From positions 62,001-126,000 of the forward strand of contig JAFPUC010000008.1 in the NCBI GenBank assembly GCA_017413255.1: 64,000 nt of DNA, read 5' to 3'. This document shows positions 5,982 to 62,145 of the stretch, in pieces. The first letter of the stretch is position 1. Each line of letters opens with the position of its first letter. The translations under genes were made by a program, and so were the position numbers. The stretch is from Aeriscardovia sp. GTDB taxonomy: Bacteria; Actinomycetota; Actinomycetes; Actinomycetales; Bifidobacteriaceae. Below the pieces are notes generated by a model that saw nothing but the letters and a program-made list of their open reading frames with translations, was not told the origin of the DNA and made no database searches.

Positions 5982-7846
5982 TTTTTCGCGCGGGCCTTAA
6001 GCTTTTCCCGTATGTCTTTGTCATCCAGATCTTCCAGGCTAAGAGCTGAAATGAAAGCTTCCTGGGGGATGGCTACGTTTCCTATTATCTTCATTTTCTT
6101 TTTGCCCTCCCTCTGCTTTTCCAGCAGCTTCCTTTTTCGGGTGATGTCGCCTCCATAGCACTTGGCGAGCACATCTTTCCTTAGGGGGCTTATGGTCTCT
6201 CTGGCTATGATCCTTTGCCCGATCGCAGCCTGAATGGGGATTTCAAACTGCTGGCGGGGGATTAGCTTTTTAAGTTTTTTTGTCATTTTCAGGCCGTATT
6301 CGTAGGCCTTGTCTTTATGGCATATGGCGCTTAAAGCGTCTGAAAGCTCGCCGTGAATGAGGATGTCTACCCGGACTAGGTCTGCCTTCTCTTCCCCGGC
6401 GGAGGCGTAGTCAAGGGTGGCGTAGCCCTTGGTGCGGCTTTTAAGCTGGTCAAAGAATCCGAAAATGATTTCTCCGGTAGGCATCTTGTACCTCAGGCAC
6501 ACCCTGTCGGGCCCCAGGTACTCCATGCCAAGCATCTTTCCCCTGTGCTCCTGGCACAGCTTCATCACATCTCCCACATAGTCTTTGGGGGTGATGATGG
6601 AAGCTTCAATCACAGGCTCCCAAACTGCCTTCACTTTGTTTTCGGGAAATTGGGTGGGGTTTGTGACAGTAATTTCGCTTCCATCCGCCATTTCCACTCT
6701 GTAGTGGACGTTGGGGGCAGTGGAAATGAGGTCTACCCCAAATTCCCTCTCCAGCCTCTCTATCACAATCTGCATGTGCAGGAGGCCCAAAAAGCCGCAC
6801 CTAAATCCAAATCCCAAGGCGCTGCTGGTTTCAGGAGTGTAACTTATGGAGGCATCGTTTAGCCGAAGCTTGTCTAAAGACTGGCGAAGGAGGGGGAATT
6901 GGTCGGTTTCCAGGGGGAAGAGGCCCGCATACACCATACTCTCGGGAGCCTTGTAGCCTTTCAAAGATTCTTTGGCTTCGTTTCTTTCGCAGGTTATGGT
7001 GTCTCCGACCTGGGCCTGCCTTACATCCTTTATGCCCGTTATTACGTAGCCTACCTGTCCGGTAGTCAGTATTTCAACCGGCCTCATAAAGGGGTCTACT
7101 ATCCCGAGCTCTAGGGGAACGAGGGAAGAGGCGGACTTCATCTGTATGATTCTGTCTTTGGCCTCAATGCTTCCATCCACTACCCTGATGTAGGTTATTA
7201 TGCCTCGGTAGGCGTCGTACTGAGAATCGAAAATCAGGGCTCTGGTGGGTCCTTGGGGATTTCCTGAAGGCGCAGGAATTTTTTCTACTATGGCATCCAG
7301 CAGTTCTTTTACCCCAAAGCCCGTTTTAGCCGATACTTCCAAAACTTCCCCGCCTTCAACTCCCAAAAGATCGCAGAGGGTAGATTTTACTTCCTCGGTC
7401 TTTGCCCCCGGCAAGTCAATTTTGTTCAAAACGGGGATTATGGTCAGGTCGTTTTGCATGGCAAGGTAGAGGTTGGAAAGGGTTTGGGCTTCTATCCCCT
7501 GGGTGGCATCCACCAAAAGCACGCACCCTTCACATGCCGCCAGCGCCCTTGACACTTCGTAGTTAAAGTCGACGTGGCCAGGGGTATCAATCATGGAAAG
7601 GGCGTAGGTCTTTTTATCCTTTACCCAGTTGACGGTTACTGCCTGGGACTTGATGGTAATCCCTCTCTCGCGCTCTATATCCATAGAGTCTAGATACTGC
7701 TCCCGCATCTGCCTGTCTGAAAGGGCTCCGGTTAGGGAAAGAATCCTGTCAGCCAGAGTTGATTTGCCGTGATCTATATGGGCTATAATCGAAAAATTGC
7801 GTATGAGTTCCTGCGGGAAAAAGGTTTCAGGTTCAGACTTTGCCAC
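5978..7846 (-). CDS. lepA: Elongation factor 4 (ribosomal back-translocase GTPase)
   Basis: LepA binds the ribosome and promotes back-translocation or initiation-complex maturation. The 622-residue protein carries the translational GTPase motifs HIDHGKST (P loop), DTPGHVDF (G3) and NKIDLPGA (G4), then EF-G-like domains II, III and V and a lysine-rich LepA-specific C-terminus. The length matches the family. It is divergent from rpsT, with 93 bases between them, and runs into hemW as a two-gene operon. Confidence 0.97.
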
Positions 7847-10974: not shown

Positions 10975-11870
10975 TATCCGAAGAAGTCCAGTTTTTTAGG
11001 ATCTTTCTGCCAGTCCTTTGCCACCCTCACTTCAAACCTCACCGACGGGTTGAATCCCAAAAAGGCGCGCAACTCCGGGATAGCTTCGCTTCTGACTTTT
11101 GTAAGGACAGATCCCCCTTTGCCTATGACGATTCCTTTCTGGCTCTCCTTTTCCACATACACTTTAAAAATCAGCCCTCTTTCCCCCACCCTTTCGCACC
11201 TTACTATAAGGGAGTGGGGAAGCTCATCGTGAAGCAGGGGGAGGAACGCTGAGCGTACGATCTGAGCCGCCTCTTCTTCGACGGTCCTTTTTTCATCTTC
11301 AGGGCCGTAAAGGGCAGGCCCCTCGGGGAGGAAGGATGAGATAAGTTCCTTTAATTCTTCCATGTGGTAGTGGGTAAAAGAGGAAACGGCAAGAACCTTT
11401 GTAAAGTCTGCTGCATCTTTTACTTCCTTCATCTTTTCTTTTATCTCTTCCTTTCCGGCCTCATCTGCCTTCGTGACAAGGGCGAGCACGGGAATCTGCC
11501 ATTCGCTTTTTCCATCCCTCCTCTTTGAAAGAAGGGAGTGAAGGTTGGTTATTATCCTTCTATCGCCTTTTCCCAGTTCTTCGTCTGCGGGGGTTAAAAA
11601 GAGCGCCGCATCAGCCGAGGCGATGGATCGCAAAGCCTCTCCGTTCAGCCTCTCTCCCAGAAGGGTGCGGGGCTTTCCAATGCCGGGGGTGTCAACCAAA
11701 ATGGCCTGGCAGGAAGGGAGGTTTAAAATGTAGCGATCTTCCCCGCGGGTGGTCTGGGGAAAGCTGGAAGAGAGAGCCACTTTCCTTCCCATAACGGAAT
11801 TTATCAGCGTGCTCTTGCCGCTGTTTGGCCTCCCCACTATCGCTACAAATCCTGACGTAAATTCACTCAT
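10968..11870 (-). CDS. era: GTPase Era
   Basis: Era binds the 3' end of 16S rRNA and is needed for 30S maturation. The 300-residue protein has a P loop GRPNSGKST (13-21), G3 DTPGIG, G4 TKAD and a C-terminal type II KH domain with GIVIGKGG. It is the last gene of the HIT-ybeY-CorC-era operon, overlapping the CorC gene by 8 bases. Confidence 0.96.
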   Translation of the reverse strand: MSEFTSGFVAIVGRPNSGKSTLINSVMGRKVALSSSFPQTTRGEDRYILNLPSCQAILVDTPGIGKPRTLLGERLNGEALRSIASADAALFLTPADEELGKGDRRIITNLHSLLSKRRDGKSEWQIPVLALVTKADEAGKEEIKEKMKEVKDAADFTKVLAVSSFTHYHMEELKELISSFLPEGPALYGPEDEKRTVEEEAAQIVRSAFLPLLHDELPHSLIVRCERVGERGLIFKVYVEKESQKGIVIGKGGSVLTKVRSEAIPELRAFLGFNPSVRFEVRVAKDWQKDPKKLDFFGYY

Positions 11871-52484: not shown

Positions 52485-53531
52485 ATGCCCCTGATGCCGC
52501 AATCAGATGAATTTGAAGAAAAATATGACGAGTCTGATGAGGATGACGGCGAGATCGAGATAGGAAAGGGAAGAGACCTCCCGTCTCACGAACATTTAGA
52601 CAAAGTAGCCGGGGCCAGCGCCGACCCCGTCAAGGACTACTTGAAGCAAATAGGAAGGGTTTCGCTTCTCACGGCAGATGAAGAAAAGGATCTGTCCGAA
52701 AGGATAGAAGCCGGACTTTATGCCCAGCATATTTTGGACACTGCCAAAGAAGGGGAACTGTCATTTGAATACAGAAGAGAGCTTCAGAGGGCTGCAAATG
52801 ATGGAAGAAAGGCCAAAGATCACCTTCTGGAGGCAAATCTGAGGCTCGTAGTTTCTCTCGCCAAGCGTTACATAGGCAGGGGCATGCACTTCCTGGATCT
52901 CATCCAGGAAGGAAATCTGGGCCTCATAAGGGCCGTTGAAAAGTTTGACTATACAAAGGGCTTCAAGTTCTCCACCTACGCCACCTGGTGGATAAGGCAG
53001 GCGATTACCAGGGCCATGGCTGACCAGGCCAGGACCATAAGGGTGCCTGTACACATGGTAGAGGTCATAAACAAGCTCTCCAGAATCCAAAGAAGAATGC
53101 TCCAGGATTTGGGAAGGGAGCCTACCACAGAAGAGCTGGCAAACGAGCTCAATATGCCTATCGAAAAAGTGGAAGAAGTGCAAAAGTACGGAAGAGAGCC
53201 CATTTCCCTCCACACTCCTTTGGGAGAGGAAGGGGATTCTGAATTCGGAGACCTCATAGAAGACACAGACGCCATAAGCCCCCAAGACGCCGTTGCCTTC
53301 TCCATCCTTCAAGAAGAGTTCAGGCAGGTGCTCGACACCTTAAGCCCGCGGGAAGCCGGGGTTATAAAAATGCGTTACGGCCTGGAAGACGGCCAGCCCA
53401 AAACTTTAGACGATATAGGCAGGATTTACGGCGTTACCCGCGAGCGCATAAGGCAGATAGAGTCGAAGACCATGAGTAAGCTCCGTCATCCTTCGCGTTC
53501 CAAGGCACTCATGGACTTTTTGGATAACTGA
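52485..53531 (+). CDS. sigA: Primary RNA polymerase sigma factor (short form)
   Basis: Shows a sigma-70 group 1/2 layout: region 1.2 ([12 protein letters not shown]), regions 2.1-2.4 ([30 protein letters not shown]), region 3 (IRVPVHMVE) and region 4 ([13 protein letters not shown]). At 348 residues it lacks region 1.1 and the long acidic N-terminus of most actinobacterial SigA. As it is the only sigma here and carries the full RpoD DNA-binding residues, I call it primary; a group 2 SigB role remains possible. AGGTG lies 6 bases before the ATG. Confidence 0.88.
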
Positions 53532-53646: not shown

Positions 53647-55686
53647 CTAATTGGACTTGGAAGAGGAACCGGACTCGCTGGAAGAGGAAGAAGAAGAGGA
53701 CTTATTTTGCGAAGAAGACTGGGTGGAAGAGGAAGAAGAAGAGGGGCTCTGGCAGTAAACAGTGATGGTAGATCCCGAATCCACGCTCCCTCCCGATGTC
53801 GACAAACTCTCTCCGCTTGGAGCCTGAAGGTTTTCAACCGTCCAGCTCTCCTGTGCATTTTGCGGAACCAATTTCACCTTGAGGCCCAGCGCCTGCAGAG
53901 CATTTTTCACAACCGAAAGGGCTTCTCCCCTCAGCTGGGAAGGGATGGTCACTTTCTGGGGCCCTTCTGAAATATTTAGGGTAATGGTGGCGCCCTGGGA
54001 AACTACGCTTCCCGCCGCGGGCGAAGTGCTGACCACCTTCCCCTTGGCAACTGAAGCGCTGCTTACCTGTTTTATGGAGATATTAAACCCGTCCTGAGAA
54101 AGCGTAGTCTGGGCATCTCCCTCGCTCTTTCCGACAAGGTTTGGCACCGTAGTCTGCCCGCTGGAAATGTAAAGGGTGACCTTCGTCCCTTCAGATTGGC
54201 TGCTTCCCGCCGCGGGCGAAGTTCCTGTCACGTGGTCTTTTGGAATGGTGGGTGAATTTTGCACTTCCACCGACCCCACCGAGAAGCCTGACACGCTCAG
54301 GCTTTGCTCGGCTTGCTGCTCTGTCATGCCCACAACGTTGGGGATTTGGGCAGTCGCCGGGCCTGCAGAGAACCATACAGTTACCGTGCTTCCCTTTATC
54401 ACGCTCTGCCCGGAGGCAGGATCTTGCTTTATTACGTTCCCCTTAGGCTGATCGGTGGCGGTGTCCAACTCGGCCTGAAACTTTAAGCCCACGCTGCTCA
54501 GGCTTTGCTCGGCTTGCTGCTCTGTCATGCCGTTTTGAATGGAAGGGACGGTGACGTACTGGGGGCGGGTGGAAAAGTATATCCACGCCCCCACCCCGCA
54601 ACAGGCGGCCAGTATACACAAAATCAGCCACACTTTCCACGCCTTATGCTTCTTTTTGACAACCGCCCTTCCGGATCCAAAGTCTCCCTCATAAGCGGAT
54701 GCGGGTGAAGAATAGCCTGAAGGGGGAACCGAGGAGGGAGGCATGGCCACCATGGTCTTTTCGGCATCCGTCGAAGGCTTGTGGAGGTCGGAAAGCGGGT
54801 TGTAGTCTTCCACCGAGGCTTTTTGCCCGCTTAAAATCGCCTGCACGTCCCTCTTAAACTCGGCCGCCGTGCTGTAGCGGTTCTGCCTGTCTTTGGTCAT
54901 GGCCTTGGCCACAACCGAATCCCAAATCTTTGGAAGCCCGGGAATGATGGAGCTGGGGGGGACGGCAACCTGTGAAACGTGCTGGTAGGCTATGGCCACA
55001 GGAGAGTCTCCCGAAAACGGGGGACGCCCCGTCAGCATTTCATAGAGCACGCATCCTGCAGAATAGAGGTCGGAACGCATGTCTATGTTCTCGCCCTTTG
55101 CCTGCTCGGGGGAAAGGTACTGAGCCGTGCCCACCACCCCCTGGGACTGGGTCATGGTGGTAGCCGAATCATCTAGAGCGCGGGCTATGCCAAAGTCCAT
55201 GACCTTTACCACGCCCTGCTCGCTTACCATGACGTTGCTGGGCTTGATGTCTCTGTGGATAATCCCCATTTTGTGGGAGTACTCAAGGGCGTTTAGGATC
55301 CCAATTATGATTTGTCCCGCATCGGTAGGAGAGAGCGCCCCGTTTTCCCTTATTATTTCCCTAAGAGTTTGGCCCTTTACATACTCCATGATGATGTAGG
55401 GGATTTTTTCCTTTTCCCCATCAGGACCTTCTGCTTCTTCTTCTCCCGTATCGTATATGGAAACAATATTGGGATTGTTAAGCTGGGCTACGGATCTGGC
55501 CTCCTTGCGAAATCTTGCCAAAAAAACCTGATCATTGGCAAGGTTGGGACGCAAAATCTTTATGGCCACCTGTCTGCTCAGGCGAGTATCGGTGCCTATA
55601 TGCACCTCGGCCATGCCGCCATGGCCTATTACCGGCCCTACGGTGTAACGGCCCTGAGCCAGGCTCTGGGGAGTGAATTGGCTCAT
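53647..55686 (-). CDS. pknB: Serine/threonine protein kinase PknB with four PASTA domains
   Basis: Wall-sensing kinase. The 679 residues hold the kinase domain (1 to about 275; VAIKILRP, HRDIKPSNV, DFGIARA, GTAQYLSPEQA), a juxtamembrane linker, one helix (about 345-365), four extracellular PASTA repeats (about 370-640), and a serine-rich tail of about 45 residues, unusual for PknB. PASTA 1 and 2 share an identical 36-base block. Last gene of the seven-gene fhaA-to-pknB operon, starting 4 bases inside the previous gene. Targets are likely wall enzymes and FHA proteins. Confidence 0.95.
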   Translation of the reverse strand: MSQFTPQSLAQGRYTVGPVIGHGGMAEVHIGTDTRLSRQVAIKILRPNLANDQVFLARFRKEARSVAQLNNPNIVSIYDTGEEEAEGPDGEKEKIPYIIMEYVKGQTLREIIRENGALSPTDAGQIIIGILNALEYSHKMGIIHRDIKPSNVMVSEQGVVKVMDFGIARALDDSATTMTQSQGVVGTAQYLSPEQAKGENIDMRSDLYSAGCVLYEMLTGRPPFSGDSPVAIAYQHVSQVAVPPSSIIPGLPKIWDSVVAKAMTKDRQNRYSTAAEFKRDVQAILSGQKASVEDYNPLSDLHKPSTDAEKTMVAMPPSSVPPSGYSSPASAYEGDFGSGRAVVKKKHKAWKVWLILCILAACCGVGAWIYFSTRPQYVTVPSIQNGMTEQQAEQSLSSVGLKFQAELDTATDQPKGNVIKQDPASGQSVIKGSTVTVWFSAGPATAQIPNVVGMTEQQAEQSLSVSGFSVGSVEVQNSPTIPKDHVTGTSPAAGSSQSEGTKVTLYISSGQTTVPNLVGKSEGDAQTTLSQDGFNISIKQVSSASVAKGKVVSTSPAAGSVVSQGATITLNISEGPQKVTIPSQLRGEALSVVKNALQALGLKVKLVPQNAQESWTVENLQAPSGESLSTSGGSVDSGSTITVYCQSPSSSSSSTQSSSQNKSSSSSSSSESGSSSKSN
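54295..54330 (-). repeat. Exact 36-base repeat within pknB, copy 1 (PASTA 2)
   Basis: Identical to 54496-54531; encodes GMTEQQAEQSLS on the minus strand. Confidence 0.9.
54496..54531 (-). repeat. Exact 36-base repeat within pknB, copy 2 (PASTA 1)
   Basis: Identical at base level to 54295-54330, including silent positions, 201 bases apart, i.e. one PASTA unit. Confidence 0.9.
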
Positions 55687-56651
55687 TTGAAACTCTCTTT
55701 CTCAAATCCGGTAAAACCGGTTGAAGGAAGGATGCCCTCCATAAGTCTGTATGCCTTCATGGCATCCGTATGTATGTAGTACTTTACCGGGTGGGGATAG
55801 CTGCAAACTTTCCTTGGTATCACTTTGTTTTTGATATCCTCCAAGATATGGTCTATGTCGTTTGCCACATCCAAAGCGCTCCGGGGCCTGTGGGCAGGGT
55901 TTTTCTCTAACATAACCATAACATAACTAGCCAATTCCTCAGGGATGTCGAAAGGAAGGCTCGGAACGGGATCGTTGACCTGGGCGGCGGCAATATCTAC
56001 AGGGGCCGTCCCGGTAAAGGGCCGGTGGCCGCTAAGGCCTTCATAGAGCACGATTCCCAAGGAATATATATCGCTTTGAGGCAGGGGCTTTAATCCCCTT
56101 GCCTGCTCGGGGGAGATGTACTGGGCCGTTCCCACTACCCTTCCGGCCTGGGTAATCTGGGCCTGATCGGCAGAGTAGCTCACTCCAAAATCGGTTATTT
56201 TTACTTTTCCTTCCGGGCTTACCATGATATTGGCAGGCTTTATGTCGCGGTGGATTACGCCGTTTTTATGCGCCACATATAATCCTTTGGCGACCTGGGA
56301 AATGAGGGGGAGAAGCTTTTTGGGGGGGATTTTTCCCGCCTCCTTATAGATTTGGGCAAGAGAAGGCCATGGAATGTATTCCATTATCAAAAAGCCCATG
56401 CCGTTGTTTTCGTAGTAGTCAAAAAGGGCTGCTATGGCGGGGTGGGCAAGGTAGGCGGAGTTTTTGGCCTCTATCCTCATTCTTTCCAGCCTCGACGAAT
56501 TTTCTTCCAAGTCGCTTCTAAGGGCTTTTACCGCCACTTCCCTTTTTGCCCCAAGATCATACGCCTTCCACACTTCTCCCATGCCGCCCTGCGCCACGCG
56601 CTTTTCAAGCCTGTAGCGGCTATGGATGATTTGCCCCTCAATCAGCTTCAT
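55683..56651 (-). CDS. pknA: Serine/threonine protein kinase PknA
   Basis: The 322 residues are essentially a kinase domain (GGMGEVW glycine loop, VAVKALRSD, HRDIKPANI, DFGVSYS, GTAQYISPEQA, SDIYSLGIVLYEGL) plus a short tail of about 45 residues with no clear membrane helix. Mycobacterial PknA has an extracellular segment; here it is absent, so it is cytoplasmic. All catalytic residues are present. It overlaps pbpA and pknB by 4 bases at each side. Confidence 0.93.
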   Translation of the reverse strand: MKLIEGQIIHSRYRLEKRVAQGGMGEVWKAYDLGAKREVAVKALRSDLEENSSRLERMRIEAKNSAYLAHPAIAALFDYYENNGMGFLIMEYIPWPSLAQIYKEAGKIPPKKLLPLISQVAKGLYVAHKNGVIHRDIKPANIMVSPEGKVKITDFGVSYSADQAQITQAGRVVGTAQYISPEQARGLKPLPQSDIYSLGIVLYEGLSGHRPFTGTAPVDIAAAQVNDPVPSLPFDIPEELASYVMVMLEKNPAHRPRSALDVANDIDHILEDIKNKVIPRKVCSYPHPVKYYIHTDAMKAYRLMEGILPSTGFTGFEKESFK

Positions 56652-58078
56652 TTTTCAGCCTCTTTTATTACGCTTCCCATTATGGAAGCAGCTTGGGCGG
56701 ATGTAGAATTTTGCAGCATTACCGCCACTACCGTGTCCGGATTTGAAGTGGAAAAGCCGGCAGCCAATGAATCGCTGCGATCGGCCTGGGATTGATCTTT
56801 AACCTGGGCCATGACGGAGGCCACGGGCCCCAAAGAGGCATCTTGCACCTTCGTCAGATTTTCCATCATGGCCTTAATCTGTGCCGCCTGCGAGGAGGTG
56901 AGGGGGGAAGAGAGGCGGGAAGGTGTGGAGGAAGAGAGGACCTGGAGGTCCGAAGAAAGGGTCCTTTTCACTAGTTCAGGCTTCATAATGCTTCCGCCGT
57001 CGGCTACCGCCCCTACCATCATGGCTTCCTGAATGAGGCTAACCTTTTCCCCGCCTTCCCCGGCCCCCGCCAAGGCCAGATTTTGCGCATCGCTCACATT
57101 TCCCAAAGACGATGCGGAAGAAAGCAGAGCCTGTCCGCTTCCCTTTTCCCCGCAAATGTGGATCGGCGATCCAAATCCAAATGAGGCGGCTTCTTTTTCC
57201 AAAGCCTGAGCTCCAAATTTCTGGGCAAGGATCGCAAATGCGGTAGAAGAAGAATAGGAAAAGGCCGTGGAAAGATCCATTTTGTTTTGCATGCTGTATC
57301 CGGGGTAATAGACGCTGTTTGCTATCACCATTCCGGAAGGGAGCTTAAAAGTTGAAGGAGCCGACACCTCGTCTGTAGGTTTCATCCCTTTTTGTAAGGC
57401 AAGGGAGGAAGTGAGGATGTTAAAAGTGGATCCAGGGTTTATGAGGTACTGGGTGGCCAAGTCCGCAAGGAGGCCTTCCTGGGAGTAGGAAGAGTAGAGG
57501 GAGCGGGCCTGCTGGGAATTGTGGGTGGCAAGAAGGTTGGGGTCGTAACTGGGGGAGGAAGCCAAAGTCAAAATAGCACCGGTTTTGGCATCCAACACTA
57601 CAATGGCTCCCGTTTTTCCTTTAAGAAGGGAATAGGAATACTCCTGGAGGGGGGCCTGGATATTGGTTTCCACATTCACCCCCCCCTCTTCCTGGCCTTC
57701 AAAGATGGATTCAAACTTTTGCTGCCATATGCTCCCATTTCCATTGGTCAGCACTTTGTCGTAACTCATCTCCACTCCCTGGCTGGGAGGGGCGGCTATG
57801 GAGAAAAAGCCAGTCACCGGCGCAAAAGCTTCCCCTTGGGGGTAAGAACGCTGATAGTTAAAAGAATCATTGCTCTTCTGGCTTAGAGCCAAAATCTGCC
57901 CTCCCGACGACAAGATCTCCCCCCTTGCCATTCCTACCTCATGGTAAAAGGCCGCCGTATTTTCCGGGTTTGCATCCAGCGCGGGAGCGTAAATGATGGA
58001 CCAAAAGAAGGTAGAGCAGGTAATGATGAGAAACAGCACTAAAACAGCAATGAAAAGCTGGCGCATGGACTTGTTCAC
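56648..58078 (-). CDS. pbpA: Class B penicillin-binding protein PbpA with degenerate active site (probable pseudoenzyme)
   Basis: 476 residues: an N-terminal membrane helix (8-28), a dimerisation domain, and a transpeptidase-like fold. The catalytic SxxK is STFN (217-220, AAC codon at 57419-57421 for the lysine). SxN reads SSS (276-278). Where KTG is expected the sequence is VKDQSQ (about 426-431). The frame is intact, with no frameshift, and it sits between rodA and pknA with 4-base overlaps. Thus the fold and SEDS partnership may be kept while transpeptidation and beta-lactam acylation are lost. Confidence 0.9.
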   Translation of the reverse strand: MNKSMRQLFIAVLVLFLIITCSTFFWSIIYAPALDANPENTAAFYHEVGMARGEILSSGGQILALSQKSNDSFNYQRSYPQGEAFAPVTGFFSIAAPPSQGVEMSYDKVLTNGNGSIWQQKFESIFEGQEEGGVNVETNIQAPLQEYSYSLLKGKTGAIVVLDAKTGAILTLASSPSYDPNLLATHNSQQARSLYSSYSQEGLLADLATQYLINPGSTFNILTSSLALQKGMKPTDEVSAPSTFKLPSGMVIANSVYYPGYSMQNKMDLSTAFSYSSSTAFAILAQKFGAQALEKEAASFGFGSPIHICGEKGSGQALLSSASSLGNVSDAQNLALAGAGEGGEKVSLIQEAMMVGAVADGGSIMKPELVKRTLSSDLQVLSSSTPSRLSSPLTSSQAAQIKAMMENLTKVQDASLGPVASVMAQVKDQSQADRSDSLAAGFSTSNPDTVVAVMLQNSTSAQAASIMGSVIKEAEK

Positions 58079-59460
58079 CTTGACCTCCTAAGAGCTGAAA
58101 GGTCTAAAAGCCCGGTTCCGTTTTCACTGCTAACGGGCCTGGGAGATTTATCTATAACCAAAAGGAGCATTAAAATCATCCAGTCGGCCGTAAGGCTAGA
58201 CCCTCCGGACGCCAGGAAAGGCATCGTAAGGCCGGTAAGGGGAAGAACAAGGGTAATTCCTCCGGCTATTGTGAAAATTTGGAAAGCCAGGGAAAAAACC
58301 AGGCCTGAGGCAAGGAGCTTGCCAAAACCGTCCTCCGTCCTCATGGCTATGACAAACCCCGCCGTTATGAGGCATAGGTACATCAAAAGCAAAAGGCAGA
58401 TTCCCACAAACCCCATCTGCTCGGTGAGTGAGGAATAGATAAAGTCCGAATTTGCAAAAGGGGTAATGGCAGGATAGCCCTCTCCAAAGCCCGTTCCAAA
58501 AAGGCCTCCGGCGCCCAATGCAAACAGGCCCTGAACGATCTGGTAGGAGCTGCCGTAGGAACGGGTGTAAAGCTGCTTGGAGAAGGGATGGAGCCAAATG
58601 TCGATGCGGGAGGAAAAAGTGGGAAACAGCCCTGCGGAGGCAAAAAAGAGAATGGCAAAGGCCGCAACTCCGCACAGCACCCATATTTTCTTTTTGCTGG
58701 CTACATATACCATGCCCGTAAAGAGGGCAAAAAACATCAGGCAAATCCCAAGATCCCCTTCCGCCACTAAGATTATGGCCACAAGGATCCACACAGCTGC
58801 CAGCGGCCCCGCGTCTTTTAGCCTGGGAAGCCTGCCTTTGCCGATTTTGGACTTTTCCTGGAATTTATTTCTGTGGGTAAAAAGGTAGGAGGCAAAAAAG
58901 ATCGCTAAAAACAGTTTCGCAAATTCGCACGGCTGCCAGGAAAAGCCCCCGAATTTCACCCACACTTTCGCTCCATTCACCCTTTCTCCAATTCCCGGAA
59001 CCAGAGGAAGGGCTAAAAGGATTAGTCCTATTGCCATAAGAGCGTAAGAGAGGCGCCGAAGCTTTCTGTAGTCAGCAAAGAAGGCTACGAGGAAAGAAGA
59101 AAGGGCTAAGGCCACCGCCAGCCAAATCATCTGCCTTAAACCGAAATCGGTGGCAGATCCGTTCTGAGCGTATTCGAGGTCAATCCTTGTAATTTGGGTT
59201 ACGCCAATCAAAGAAAGCAGGAGCCCTACAGGCACTATCGCCTTTATGCTGTTTGGGATCTTTTTGTCCACAAGGACGGTCAAAAGGATGGCAAGAGCGC
59301 AGTCAATGCCTCCGGCAAGAAGGTAGGGCCATGGAATTTTTCCTGCCAGCTTCAGCATCATAGATGAAAAAGCCAGGCATCCTACAAACAGGGCAAAGAG
59401 GGTAAGGTATATCCTCCTGCCCTTGGAGGGGCTTTTTACCTGTCTGGAAGACTTCCTCAT
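58075..59460 (-). CDS. rodA: SEDS-family peptidoglycan glycosyltransferase (RodA/FtsW)
   Basis: The 461 residues include about ten membrane helices and the large extracellular loop with ANSDFIYSSLTEQMG, which keeps the catalytic aspartate and the following glutamate of SEDS polymerases; GLFGTGFGEG is the family signature. It polymerises lipid II and normally acts with a class B PBP, here PbpA, encoded next with a 4-base overlap. The polymerase appears active while its partner does not. Confidence 0.94.
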   Translation of the reverse strand: MRKSSRQVKSPSKGRRIYLTLFALFVGCLAFSSMMLKLAGKIPWPYLLAGGIDCALAILLTVLVDKKIPNSIKAIVPVGLLLSLIGVTQITRIDLEYAQNGSATDFGLRQMIWLAVALALSSFLVAFFADYRKLRRLSYALMAIGLILLALPLVPGIGERVNGAKVWVKFGGFSWQPCEFAKLFLAIFFASYLFTHRNKFQEKSKIGKGRLPRLKDAGPLAAVWILVAIILVAEGDLGICLMFFALFTGMVYVASKKKIWVLCGVAAFAILFFASAGLFPTFSSRIDIWLHPFSKQLYTRSYGSSYQIVQGLFALGAGGLFGTGFGEGYPAITPFANSDFIYSSLTEQMGFVGICLLLLMYLCLITAGFVIAMRTEDGFGKLLASGLVFSLAFQIFTIAGGITLVLPLTGLTMPFLASGGSSLTADWMILMLLLVIDKSPRPVSSENGTGLLDLSALRRSR

Positions 59461-60842
59461 TTTTGCGCTCCCCCTGTTTTCAGCTCGTCGGCTTTCTGAA
59501 GGGCTTGAGAAAGGGAAGAAACGTGAATGCCGTTTTGAAGTTGTTGGCGGAGGGAAGGGGGAAGAGAAGATGCGCTCACACCCGTGGACTGCTCAAGGTG
59601 AGAAAGCCTGATTCCTAAAATATTCGTAGATACCCCCTTGTAAACCGCCACATAGCCTTCCCATTCACCGAGATAGTACTGCGTCTGACTCCAGTAAAAA
59701 AGGTACCCTCCTATGGAGAGTATTGTAGCGAGGCAAAGGCATAAAAATATCCAAACTGCCGTCTTCCACCGCTTGCGCCTTTTACGCCCTTCCTGGACTA
59801 CCTTTTTGCCATACTGCTCCAAAACTTCGGCATCTACAGGATCTGCAGGGTTTAAATTCTTTCCGCTTACTATGGGAATTTCAGCCGTATCCACCGGGGG
59901 CTCTTCAAAGGAAGGCGTATTTCCCTTAACTGTTTGCGCTTTCTCTTCTTCTTCCCCTTCGCGCAAAAGATCGCTGGCTCTCTTTAAGGGAGAATCTTCT
60001 TCTATGAGCGGGGGGGCGATCTCCACCTTTTTGCGCGTGGTTTCAATTATTGACTGCAGGCTCTCTTCTACGGCTCCCGCTATTAAGGCAGGGCCTTGCG
60101 GCGCCGGCCCCCGAAAGCAATCTGCCACCACCGCCGTAACGTTGTCGGAACTGCCGGCCTTTAAGGCCATGTTTACAAGGGTTTGGGCGCACAGTTCTTT
60201 ATCTGCAATTTTTTGCAAGGTGTCTTTTATGGTTTCGTCTTCCAACGATCCCGACAGACCGTCTGAACAAAGAAGGCACCTGTCTCCTGCCCTGGCTTTT
60301 CTAACGCAAATATCGGGAAGGGGATTGATGTTGAAGTCCCCCACTACCCTCATTACAACGTTTTTTTGAGGATGGATTTTTGCCTCTTCTTCACTCAGAA
60401 TGGAGGAATCTATAAGATACTGCACGTAACTGTGATCATGAGTAAGGCGGATCAGTTTCCCGTCCTGAAGAAGGTAAACCCTAGAGTCTCCTATATGTGC
60501 CAGCACCCAGTAGTCATTTATTAAAAGCAGGGCGTCTACGGTAGTTCCCATGCCGGAAAGCGCCTTTTCCTTAGATGCCTTTCCCACTATGGCGTCATGG
60601 GCAAGAAGAATGCTCTTTTCCACCGCCCTGCATACCGCCTCTACATTGTGCCTGAAGGCTTTGGGGTGCTCCAGATGGCTTAGGGTTCTAATAGCTATGG
60701 TGGAAGCCGTGGCGCCGCCTGCATGCCCCCCCATGCCGTCCGCCACAGCAGCCAAAGTGGTTCCTGCGAACCCGGAATCTTGATTATCCTTTCTCACGTA
60801 GCCCTTGTCGCTTACAAGGGAGGAAGAGAGGTGCAGTTCCAT
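59457..60842 (-). CDS. pstP: PP2C-family serine/threonine phosphatase
   Basis: The only phosphatase of this signalling locus; reverses PknA/PknB. The 461 residues have a PP2C domain (1 to about 240; VRKDNQDS, ADGMGGHAGG, GDSRVYLL, LLCSDGLSG, SSDNVTAVV, all metal ligands visible), a linker, one membrane helix (about 350-375), and an extracellular tail of about 85 residues. The layout matches mycobacterial PstP. Overlaps rodA by 4 bases and follows fhaB by 2 bases. Confidence 0.95.
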   Translation of the reverse strand: MELHLSSSLVSDKGYVRKDNQDSGFAGTTLAAVADGMGGHAGGATASTIAIRTLSHLEHPKAFRHNVEAVCRAVEKSILLAHDAIVGKASKEKALSGMGTTVDALLLINDYWVLAHIGDSRVYLLQDGKLIRLTHDHSYVQYLIDSSILSEEEAKIHPQKNVVMRVVGDFNINPLPDICVRKARAGDRCLLCSDGLSGSLEDETIKDTLQKIADKELCAQTLVNMALKAGSSDNVTAVVADCFRGPAPQGPALIAGAVEESLQSIIETTRKKVEIAPPLIEEDSPLKRASDLLREGEEEEKAQTVKGNTPSFEEPPVDTAEIPIVSGKNLNPADPVDAEVLEQYGKKVVQEGRKRRKRWKTAVWIFLCLCLATILSIGGYLFYWSQTQYYLGEWEGYVAVYKGVSTNILGIRLSHLEQSTGVSASSLPPSLRQQLQNGIHVSSLSQALQKADELKTGGAQK

Positions 60843-60844
60843 CT

Positions 60845-61423
60845 CTACCTCAGCTCAAACGATGTAGCCCCCAGGCGTATAAGCTGCCCGGGTTTTATTA
60901 TGACGGGTCCGGCAATTTGTTTTTCATCCAAATAAGTTCCATTGGTAGATCCCAGATCTTCTAGAACCCATTCCCCTTTTTTGCTTTTGTATATTCTGGC
61001 GTGGTGTGAAGAAATAAATTGATCCGGTACGACGATGGAATTATCCGGAGCCCTGCCTACGGTGCAAGAAGGAGGGAGGGGGAAAGTCATACCCGCCTTC
61101 TGTCCGTCCACTATAACGAGAACGGTGGTGTCGCTGCGGGAAGGGGAGACGGGAGAAGGGGAGGGGGGGACGTGCGTCACCAAGGAAACGATGGAAGTTT
61201 GAGTAACGGAAGAAGGGCTGGAGGGGCGCGCCGAAGAGGAAGAAGAAAAGGCAGATCTGTCCCTAGCTTCCTTCATTTGTTTTTTCCTCTTTCTTATCCA
61301 TTTGTCTCTGGAGGGCAAGAAAGCAGACACATCTTTGTGCAGAGAGCGAACTGCGAGCCATGCGAAAAGTATCAGCGCAAGAATGAAGCTGTATTTTAGA
61401 ACCGCATATGTCAATTCGGTCAT
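60845..61423 (-). CDS. fhaB: Membrane-anchored FHA-domain protein (FhaB type)
   Basis: The 192 residues have an N-terminal helix (about 8-26), a serine/proline-rich linker of about 60 residues, and a C-terminal FHA domain (GRAPDNSIVV, SSHHARI, STNGTYLD). FHA domains bind phosphothreonine, so it reads PknA/PknB activity. FhaB (FipA) in mycobacteria links to FtsZ and FtsQ. The linker contains an internal run of Ser/Pro likely to be phosphorylated. Confidence 0.92.
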   Translation of the reverse strand: MTELTYAVLKYSFILALILFAWLAVRSLHKDVSAFLPSRDKWIRKRKKQMKEARDRSAFSSSSSARPSSPSSVTQTSIVSLVTHVPPSPSPVSPSRSDTTVLVIVDGQKAGMTFPLPPSCTVGRAPDNSIVVPDQFISSHHARIYKSKKGEWVLEDLGSTNGTYLDEKQIAGPVIIKPGQLIRLGATSFELR

Positions 61424-61443: not shown

Positions 61444-62145
61444 TCAGGACCTCGGCTCGGAGGAAGCCCAGAATACGATTCTGGTCCTGCCTATGGTAAT
61501 CGTGTTGCCGTCTATTAAAGTGGCCGCGGGCACGAGGTGGCCTTCTACATACACTCCGTTGGTAGAGTGCAAATCCCTGGCTACAACTCCCCTGGGAGTA
61601 ATGGTGATTTCAAGATGCTTTCTTGAAATTCCGGGATCATCTATGACTATGTCACAGTCAGATCCTCTTCCGATTATGGTTTTTGCTGCAGTGAGCAAGT
61701 ACTGGCGTCCGGAAATTTCCAGCACAGGAAAATCTTTTGCTTCATTTCTATTGGTAACGGGTGCGGCATTGCCCTGCACGGTTTCGCTTGTCAGCCTGAA
61801 CTCGCCCTTGGAAATATCAAGATTTTCCTCAAATATCACCGTCACAGGGCCTTCGAAGCTATAGGATTGGTTGGTTGCATATTTAGTCAGCCCATCGGCC
61901 AGCTCGTTTGCCAAGGATTCAGATCCCCACTCTTCTATCTTGTCGAAATCCGGAGTGCTTAGCTCGAACCTGTATTCATTTGGAACTACGGTTCTATTTT
62001 GGGAAATCACCCTAGCTTTGGAATCTATTTCTTTTTCGAGCGCACCTGACAGATCAACAGGCTGCAGATCTTTTGATCCGAACCGGGAAAACACCCCGTT
62101 GACCCCGCGCTCAACGTGTTTTTCAAACCTATCGAGTATGCTCAT
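61444..62145 (-). CDS. fhaA: FHA-domain protein with DUF3662 domain (FhaA type)
   Basis: The 233 residues have a DUF3662 domain (1 to about 125; begins SILDRFEKHVERGVNGVFS) and an FHA domain (GRGSDCDIVI, ISRKHLEI, STNGVYVE). The long disordered linker of mycobacterial FhaA (528 residues) is nearly absent. FhaA binds phosphorylated MviN in mycobacteria. First gene of the operon; GAGGTCGG precedes the ATG by 1-8 bases, and TATTAA lies upstream as a weak -10. Confidence 0.93.
   Translation of the reverse strand: MSILDRFEKHVERGVNGVFSRFGSKDLQPVDLSGALEKEIDSKARVISQNRTVVPNEYRFELSTPDFDKIEEWGSESLANELADGLTKYATNQSYSFEGPVTVIFEENLDISKGEFRLTSETVQGNAAPVTNRNEAKDFPVLEISGRQYLLTAAKTIIGRGSDCDIVIDDPGISRKHLEITITPRGVVARDLHSTNGVYVEGHLVPAATLIDGNTITIGRTRIVFWASSEPRS

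Follow-up and report, generated by a model that had tools for sequence, protein, structure and literature searches.

The pbpA operon and its catalytic positions

The window, by which we mean the whole stretch of 64,000 nucleotides that was analysed, belongs to a genome of 928 kb in 14 contigs, estimated to be 100% complete and 0.12% contaminated. It carries an operon of seven minus-strand genes in the order fhaA-fhaB-pp2c (pstP-like)-rodA-pbpA-pknA-pknB (Table 1). Four of the six junctions are overlaps of 4 nt and the other two are gaps of 2 and 20 nt, so the coupled seven-gene operon that had been proposed from a sequence-only reading of the window is real. As is characteristic of actinobacterial PbpA, pbpA lies next to rodA and pknA/pknB, and both rodA and pknA overlap it by 4 nt. 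Elsewhere in the window, the primary sigma factor at 52485-53531 (+) reads only 348 aa, which is shorter than the matched 500-aa-class actinobacterial RpoD models.

The pbpA frame is intact, as the same reading had held, with a GTG start, a TGA stop and 476 aa in between. The protein displays the architecture of actinobacterial PbpA: a TM anchor, a PBP_dimer_2 pedestal (PF21922, 74.1 bits) and a transpeptidase domain (PF00905). Its AlphaFold model has a pLDDT of 85.2, with a helix at residues 3-36, and its best PDB matches are the M. tuberculosis PbpA structures 3UN7, 3UPN and 3UPO (TM 0.8-0.9). M. tuberculosis PbpA is thus the closest solved relative both by sequence (phmmer) and by fold. Judging by this model, the transpeptidase fold is kept in a PbpA that has lost its motifs.

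The catalytic positions were placed with a phmmer alignment to M. tuberculosis PbpA and with alignments to about 30-39 relatives. Where an active PbpA carries SxxK, SxN and KTG, the window protein has STFN, SSS and VMA. The earlier assignment of STFN to the SxxK position, with AAC as the codon of the lost lysine, and that of SSS to the SxN position both agree with these alignments. The loss of KTG stands as well, but not the letters KDQ that had been given for it: the column that reads K-T/S-G in every active relative corresponds to V422-M423-A424, and KDQ, rejected by the alignment as a KTG remnant, only resembles the motif. The window PbpA is therefore a PbpA homologue without the catalytic motifs of its family, although the SEDS-bPBP pair to which it belongs is otherwise conventional in layout. 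On the side of the SEDS partner, the catalytic-type Asp that had been noted in RodA is indeed kept, and NSDFIY is found in every RodA of the genus.

Table 1. Positions in the window of the operon genes and of the PbpA and RodA features discussed in the text
Feature	Position	Strand	Evidence or remark
pbpA, class B PBP homologue, predicted to be catalytically dead	56648..58078	-	Pfam PF21922 E 1.1e-20; PF00905 E 3e-33
PbpA cytoplasmic/TM anchor, residues 1-31	57986..58078	-	Highest conservation in the genus, 95% identity
PbpA PBP_dimer_2 pedestal, residues 52-136	57671..57925	-	Identity within the genus 85%, versus 76% for the transpeptidase domain
PbpA transpeptidase-fold domain, residues 157-476	56651..57610	-	Pfam, AlphaFold model, PDB matches
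PbpA SxxK position S217-T218-F219-N220, Lys lost, codon AAC 57419-57421	57419..57430	-	Alignments
PbpA SxN position S276-S277-S278, Asn lost	57245..57253	-	Alignments
PbpA true KTG position V422-M423-A424, all three lost	56807..56815	-	Alignments
PbpA KDQ, residues 427-429, three residues past the true KTG column	56792..56800	-	Alignments
rodA, SEDS glycosyltransferase, sole SEDS gene of the genome	58075..59460	-	PF01098 E 7.9e-68; 4-nt overlap with pbpA
RodA Asp339 in NSDFIY, equivalent to the SEDS catalytic Asp (E. coli FtsW D297)	58444..58446	-	PMC8765783
PP2C phosphatase, pstP-like	59457..60842	-	Pfam
FHA-domain protein, fhaB-like	60845..61423	-	Pfam
FhaA-type protein	61444..62145	-	PF12401
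Ser/Thr kinase, pknA-like	55683..56651	-	Pfam; 4-nt overlap with pbpA
Ser/Thr kinase, pknB-like, with PASTA repeats	53647..55686	-	Pfam

Spread of the motif loss and constraint on pbpA

The relatives of the source genome, deposited as 'Aeriscardovia sp.', are Bifidobacteriaceae MAGs from the gut of ruminants, and every genome of the two clades considered here, the genus and its sister genus, is a MAG. The genus has been recovered from the abomasum and reticulum of yak and water buffalo, and the sister genus from the abomasum of water buffalo and cattle and from goat duodenum. Within the genus, pbpA was located in six genomes, all of which read STFN, SSS and VMA; the seventh, 87% complete, gave no pbpA match. 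In the sister genus, the three species available read STFN/GSS/VTG, AVFD/SSN/VIG and AVFN/SSN/VMG. The lysines of SxxK and KTG are thus missing from all nine PbpAs, while Ser217, present throughout the genus (6/6), is Ala in two of the three sister-genus species.

The alignment that had been proposed for establishing how far the loss extends places it in nine genomes of two genera. All other bifidobacterial PbpAs examined have SxxK, SxN and K[TS]G. Across the phylum, 80 other PbpAs were picked by their pedestal domain, so that sampling was independent of the catalytic motifs; SxxK is kept in 80 of 80 and KTG in all 79 evaluable sequences (L242 ends early and was scored for SxxK and SxN only), and the remaining position reads SxN in 74 and SxD in 6. 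The latter, found at L214, L227, L229, L230, L232 and L254, carry SCD at the SxN position and have both SxxK and KTG intact.

In a tree built from RodA, PknA and FhaA, which are linked genes and hence not fully independent, the nine genomes with inactive PbpA form one clade with a support of 1.0. The class A PBP, encoded in another part of the genome, agrees with this tree, with 66-71% identity between the two genera versus 54-55% to the compared outgroup. A single loss of the PbpA motifs predating the split of the two genera would be the simplest reading.

Despite its altered active site, pbpA is under purifying selection. The protein is exactly 476 aa long in six species, and comparisons with the window gene give an omega of 0.09-0.16 over the full length of the gene, or 0.10-0.19 when only the transpeptidase domain is considered; rodA lies below pbpA, at 0.04-0.07, but pbpA is still far from neutral (the pknB value of G006 was left out, owing to a wrong pairing at a contig end). 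Constraint is unevenly distributed along the protein. In the genus, the ratio of divergence between the anchor plus pedestal (residues 1-156) and the transpeptidase half (residues 157-476) is 0.56 (95% CI 0.40-0.75), based on six sequences, whereas the same halves diverge about equally in active bifidobacterial PbpAs (1.09, CI 0.91-1.30), with no overlap between the groups in 5000 column bootstraps. It has been described that anchor and pedestal are the SEDS-contacting, SEDS-regulating parts of SEDS-bPBP pairs (PMC10257715, PMC8765783), including a pedestal-ECL4 interface in FtsI-FtsW (PMC8765783), and these are the parts conserved here. We infer, short of proof, that the pattern is the one expected of an activator without catalysis, and the N-terminal shift could partly reflect partners other than RodA.

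Wall-synthesis and division genes that remain

Genomes of the genus each encode two PF00905 proteins, namely PbpA and a class A PBP, except for the incomplete G001 with a single one. Looking through the remaining genome for a class B PBP with intact motifs, as had been suggested, thus yielded none, FtsI being absent too, and a hidden second class B PBP is ruled out by the same counts. The sole class A PBP (L002 1141-3378, minus strand) has intact SSFK, SHN and KSG as well as glycosyltransferase motifs; the compared outgroup genome has two class A PBPs, one of which is its orthologue. Compared with its counterparts in two congeners, the class A PBP of the window species shows 94-95% identity and is thereby far better conserved than PbpA, for which these genomes give 75-80%.

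One SEDS protein is found in each of six genomes of the genus, versus two elsewhere, and, judging by the domain searches, RodA with its predicted dead PbpA is the only SEDS pair remaining in the genus. It had been proposed that cross-linking is taken over by another PBP or by an L,D-transpeptidase. The first option is supported and can be narrowed to one candidate, the intact class A PBP; the second drops out for the genus, as no YkuD domain was detected in any of its seven genomes, with the sister genus and outgroups serving as positive controls in which it was found. Peptidase_S11 carboxypeptidases fell below the cut-off throughout the family and their lack is hence not specific to the genus. 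Matches to MreB were weak and mostly lay in frames of ~630 aa read as DnaK, giving no evidence of MreB in the Bifidobacteriaceae genomes tested.

The division genes have also been pruned. Domain searches returned no FtsI, FtsW or FtsQ in six genomes of the genus, and the FtsQ POTRA domain, absent from all six, was present in all six others tested. FtsZ (encoded elsewhere), the Mur ligases, MraY, MurG and MurJ are retained, so that these genomes have the gene content of a C. difficile-type division without FtsW/FtsI, in which FtsZ is present and neither FtsW nor FtsI is. They do not display the peptidoglycan-intermediate pattern, in which class A PBPs are lost and class B PBPs kept: here the class A PBP is intact and FtsI is absent.

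In the source genome, the dcw cluster (L176, G000:C12:53001-69000) lacks ftsI, the gene at the ftsL position, ftsW and ftsQ, and the neighbours overlap. The sites of loss in L176 are junctions near 11245-11248 and 6368-6371, and a position downstream of 3692: mraW overlaps the gene formerly 3' of ftsI, murD overlaps murG at the former ftsW site, and ftsQ is missing after murC. In every dcw cluster examined, a protein of 303-328 aa is encoded between murF and the ftsI site (L176 10280-11248, minus strand; L180 3782-4741; L181 3753-4664) and outlasts the loss of ftsI; the copy of the window genome has no Pfam match.

The sister genus retains FtsW, FtsQ and an FtsI with intact motifs (GSIGK/GSLGK, SSN, KSG). 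Its genomes G016 and G029 combine a dead PbpA with intact FtsI, FtsW, FtsQ and L,D-transpeptidases; they represent an intermediate stage, which helps to date the losses. By parsimony, PbpA was inactivated first, and FtsI, FtsW, FtsQ and the L,D-transpeptidases were then lost in the genus.

A probable role for PbpA as a partner of RodA

We consider it likely that PbpA survives as a pseudo-transpeptidase whose role is to activate RodA or to serve as its scaffold, and that cross-links are made by the class A PBP. The activator or scaffold role, already suggested by the sequence-only reading, is favoured by the purifying selection on pbpA, the constraint on anchor and pedestal, the catalytic Asp of RodA and the overlap of pbpA with rodA. 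According to this explanation, PbpA, which still has the actinobacterial PbpA fold along with its membrane anchor and pedestal, would bind RodA, the only SEDS glycan polymerase left, and would allosterically activate or scaffold it. The glycan made by RodA would then be cross-linked by the class A PBP, the one transpeptidase of the genome with intact motifs. Because FtsW-FtsI is gone, the set of RodA, PbpA and class A PBP would also have to serve division in the genus; the septum could be made by RodA with PbpA or by the class A PBP, between which sequence does not discriminate.

Several of these steps have precedents. RodA is activated by PBP2 through interface I (PMC10257715). In engineered strains, B. 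subtilis PBP2B S309A supports division only with active PBP3 (PMC5656894), and C. difficile SpoVD S311A is functional only with its SEDS partner SpoVE (PMC12713402). On the other hand, SEDS polymerisation uncoupled from cross-linking has been reported to be a toxic futile cycle in E. coli (PMC6207328); a coupling of RodA to the class A PBP must therefore be assumed, which is a real prediction of the explanation.

It is unlikely that PbpA acts instead as a non-catalytic sensor, its empty cleft binding stem peptide, lipid II or muropeptide and signalling to RodA or to PknA/PknB, FHA or PP2C proteins. Kinases, phosphatase and FHA proteins do share the operon with pbpA, and the fold and cleft segments are maintained; however, active PbpA has the same operon in other Actinobacteria such as M. 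tuberculosis, so that the context is not specific, and the transpeptidase domain is the faster-evolving half of the protein.

We find it quite improbable that the PbpA active site still works with altered chemistry, either through Ser217 and another base or on a new ligand or substrate. Within the genus, neither Ser217 and Phe219 nor the stretches STFN and SSS vary, and identity around them is 85-86% versus 76% for the whole transpeptidase domain. Nevertheless, active relatives conserve these segments equally strongly for catalysis, and their conservation in the genus may therefore reflect packing only. Moreover, Lys220, Asn278 and the entire KTG are gone, and the replacement of Ser217 by Ala in two sister-genus species (AVFN, AVFD) indicates that the nucleophile is dispensable in the clade. 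Weak acylation or other chemistry at the Ser217 of the genus is nonetheless conceivable.

It seems highly improbable that pbpA is decaying as part of genome reduction and persists only through its translational coupling to rodA and pknA. Genomes have been reduced to 0.6-0.93 Mb, and the same lineage has lost ftsI, ftsW, ftsQ, the L,D-transpeptidases and a second class A PBP, but the omega values, which are low in the transpeptidase domain too, and the open frame kept at full length in six species argue strongly against pseudogene decay, and the fold is predicted well. The dcw operon is also coupled and cleanly shed other genes, so coupling alone would be no protection for a useless gene. Finally, a sequencing or assembly error at the AAC codon and the other motifs, for which one could invoke that all genomes of the clade are MAGs, has a negligible probability, as the same changes recur in nine independently assembled genomes from different animals and contigs of two genera, and the other PBPs of these assemblies have intact catalytic motifs. 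Chance is excluded on the same grounds.

Several known systems offer points of comparison. M. tuberculosis PbpA (3UN7/3UPN) shares its fold, pedestal and operon with rodA, pknA and pknB, but is acylated by penicillin and imipenem (3UPO, 3UPN), whereas the window PbpA lacks the SxxK lysine, the SxN asparagine and KTG. It is plausible that the latter would be unacylatable by beta-lactams, as had been suggested; this is limited to PbpA, because the penicillin-binding site of the class A PBP is of the ordinary kind. In the engineered PBP2B S309A (PMC5656894) and SpoVD S311A (PMC12713402), a non-catalytic bPBP supports its SEDS partner and another enzyme cross-links, as may be the case here. Both are point mutants made in the laboratory, and their cells have a further bPBP, whereas the change in the window PbpA is natural, fixed and extends to all three motifs, with no other bPBP.

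The C. difficile divisome also lacks FtsW/FtsI and has one class A PBP as its likely main synthase (PMC12539705); the authors of that work present this enzyme, PBP1, as the first example, to their knowledge, of FtsW-FtsI-independent division driven by a class A PBP. C. difficile keeps, however, an active RodA-PBP2 pair and FtsQLB homologues, whereas in the genus FtsQ is gone, a single PBP has catalytic motifs, and the septal role of the class A PBP is putative. Chlamydia, Wolbachia and Orientia (PMC5814848) resemble the genus in their strongly reduced set of wall synthases, but the retention is opposite, as they keep SEDS and class B PBPs and have lost class A PBPs. A literature search, with subscription papers mostly outside its scope, found no published natural pseudo-PBP of a SEDS pair.

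With modest confidence, we lean towards a broader proposal, in which a walled actinobacterial lineage would rely on a natural pseudo-PBP to serve its only SEDS polymerase and on a single class A PBP for every peptide cross-link, and this minimal set would carry both growth and division. It would represent a second independent case of FtsW-FtsI-less division and the first known natural split of activator and transpeptidase roles in a class B PBP.

Whether cross-linking or SEDS switching is the main job of a class B PBP has so far been tested with laboratory point mutants. In these bacteria, evolution appears to have separated both roles and fixed the separation in two genera, one of which then discarded FtsW, FtsI and FtsQ. 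The window PbpA may thus provide an activator-only PBP of natural origin that could be purified and reconstituted with RodA, and one SEDS protein, one pseudo-PBP and one class A PBP would form a candidate minimal set for wall synthesis, with the prediction that these cells have only one high-molecular-weight beta-lactam target.
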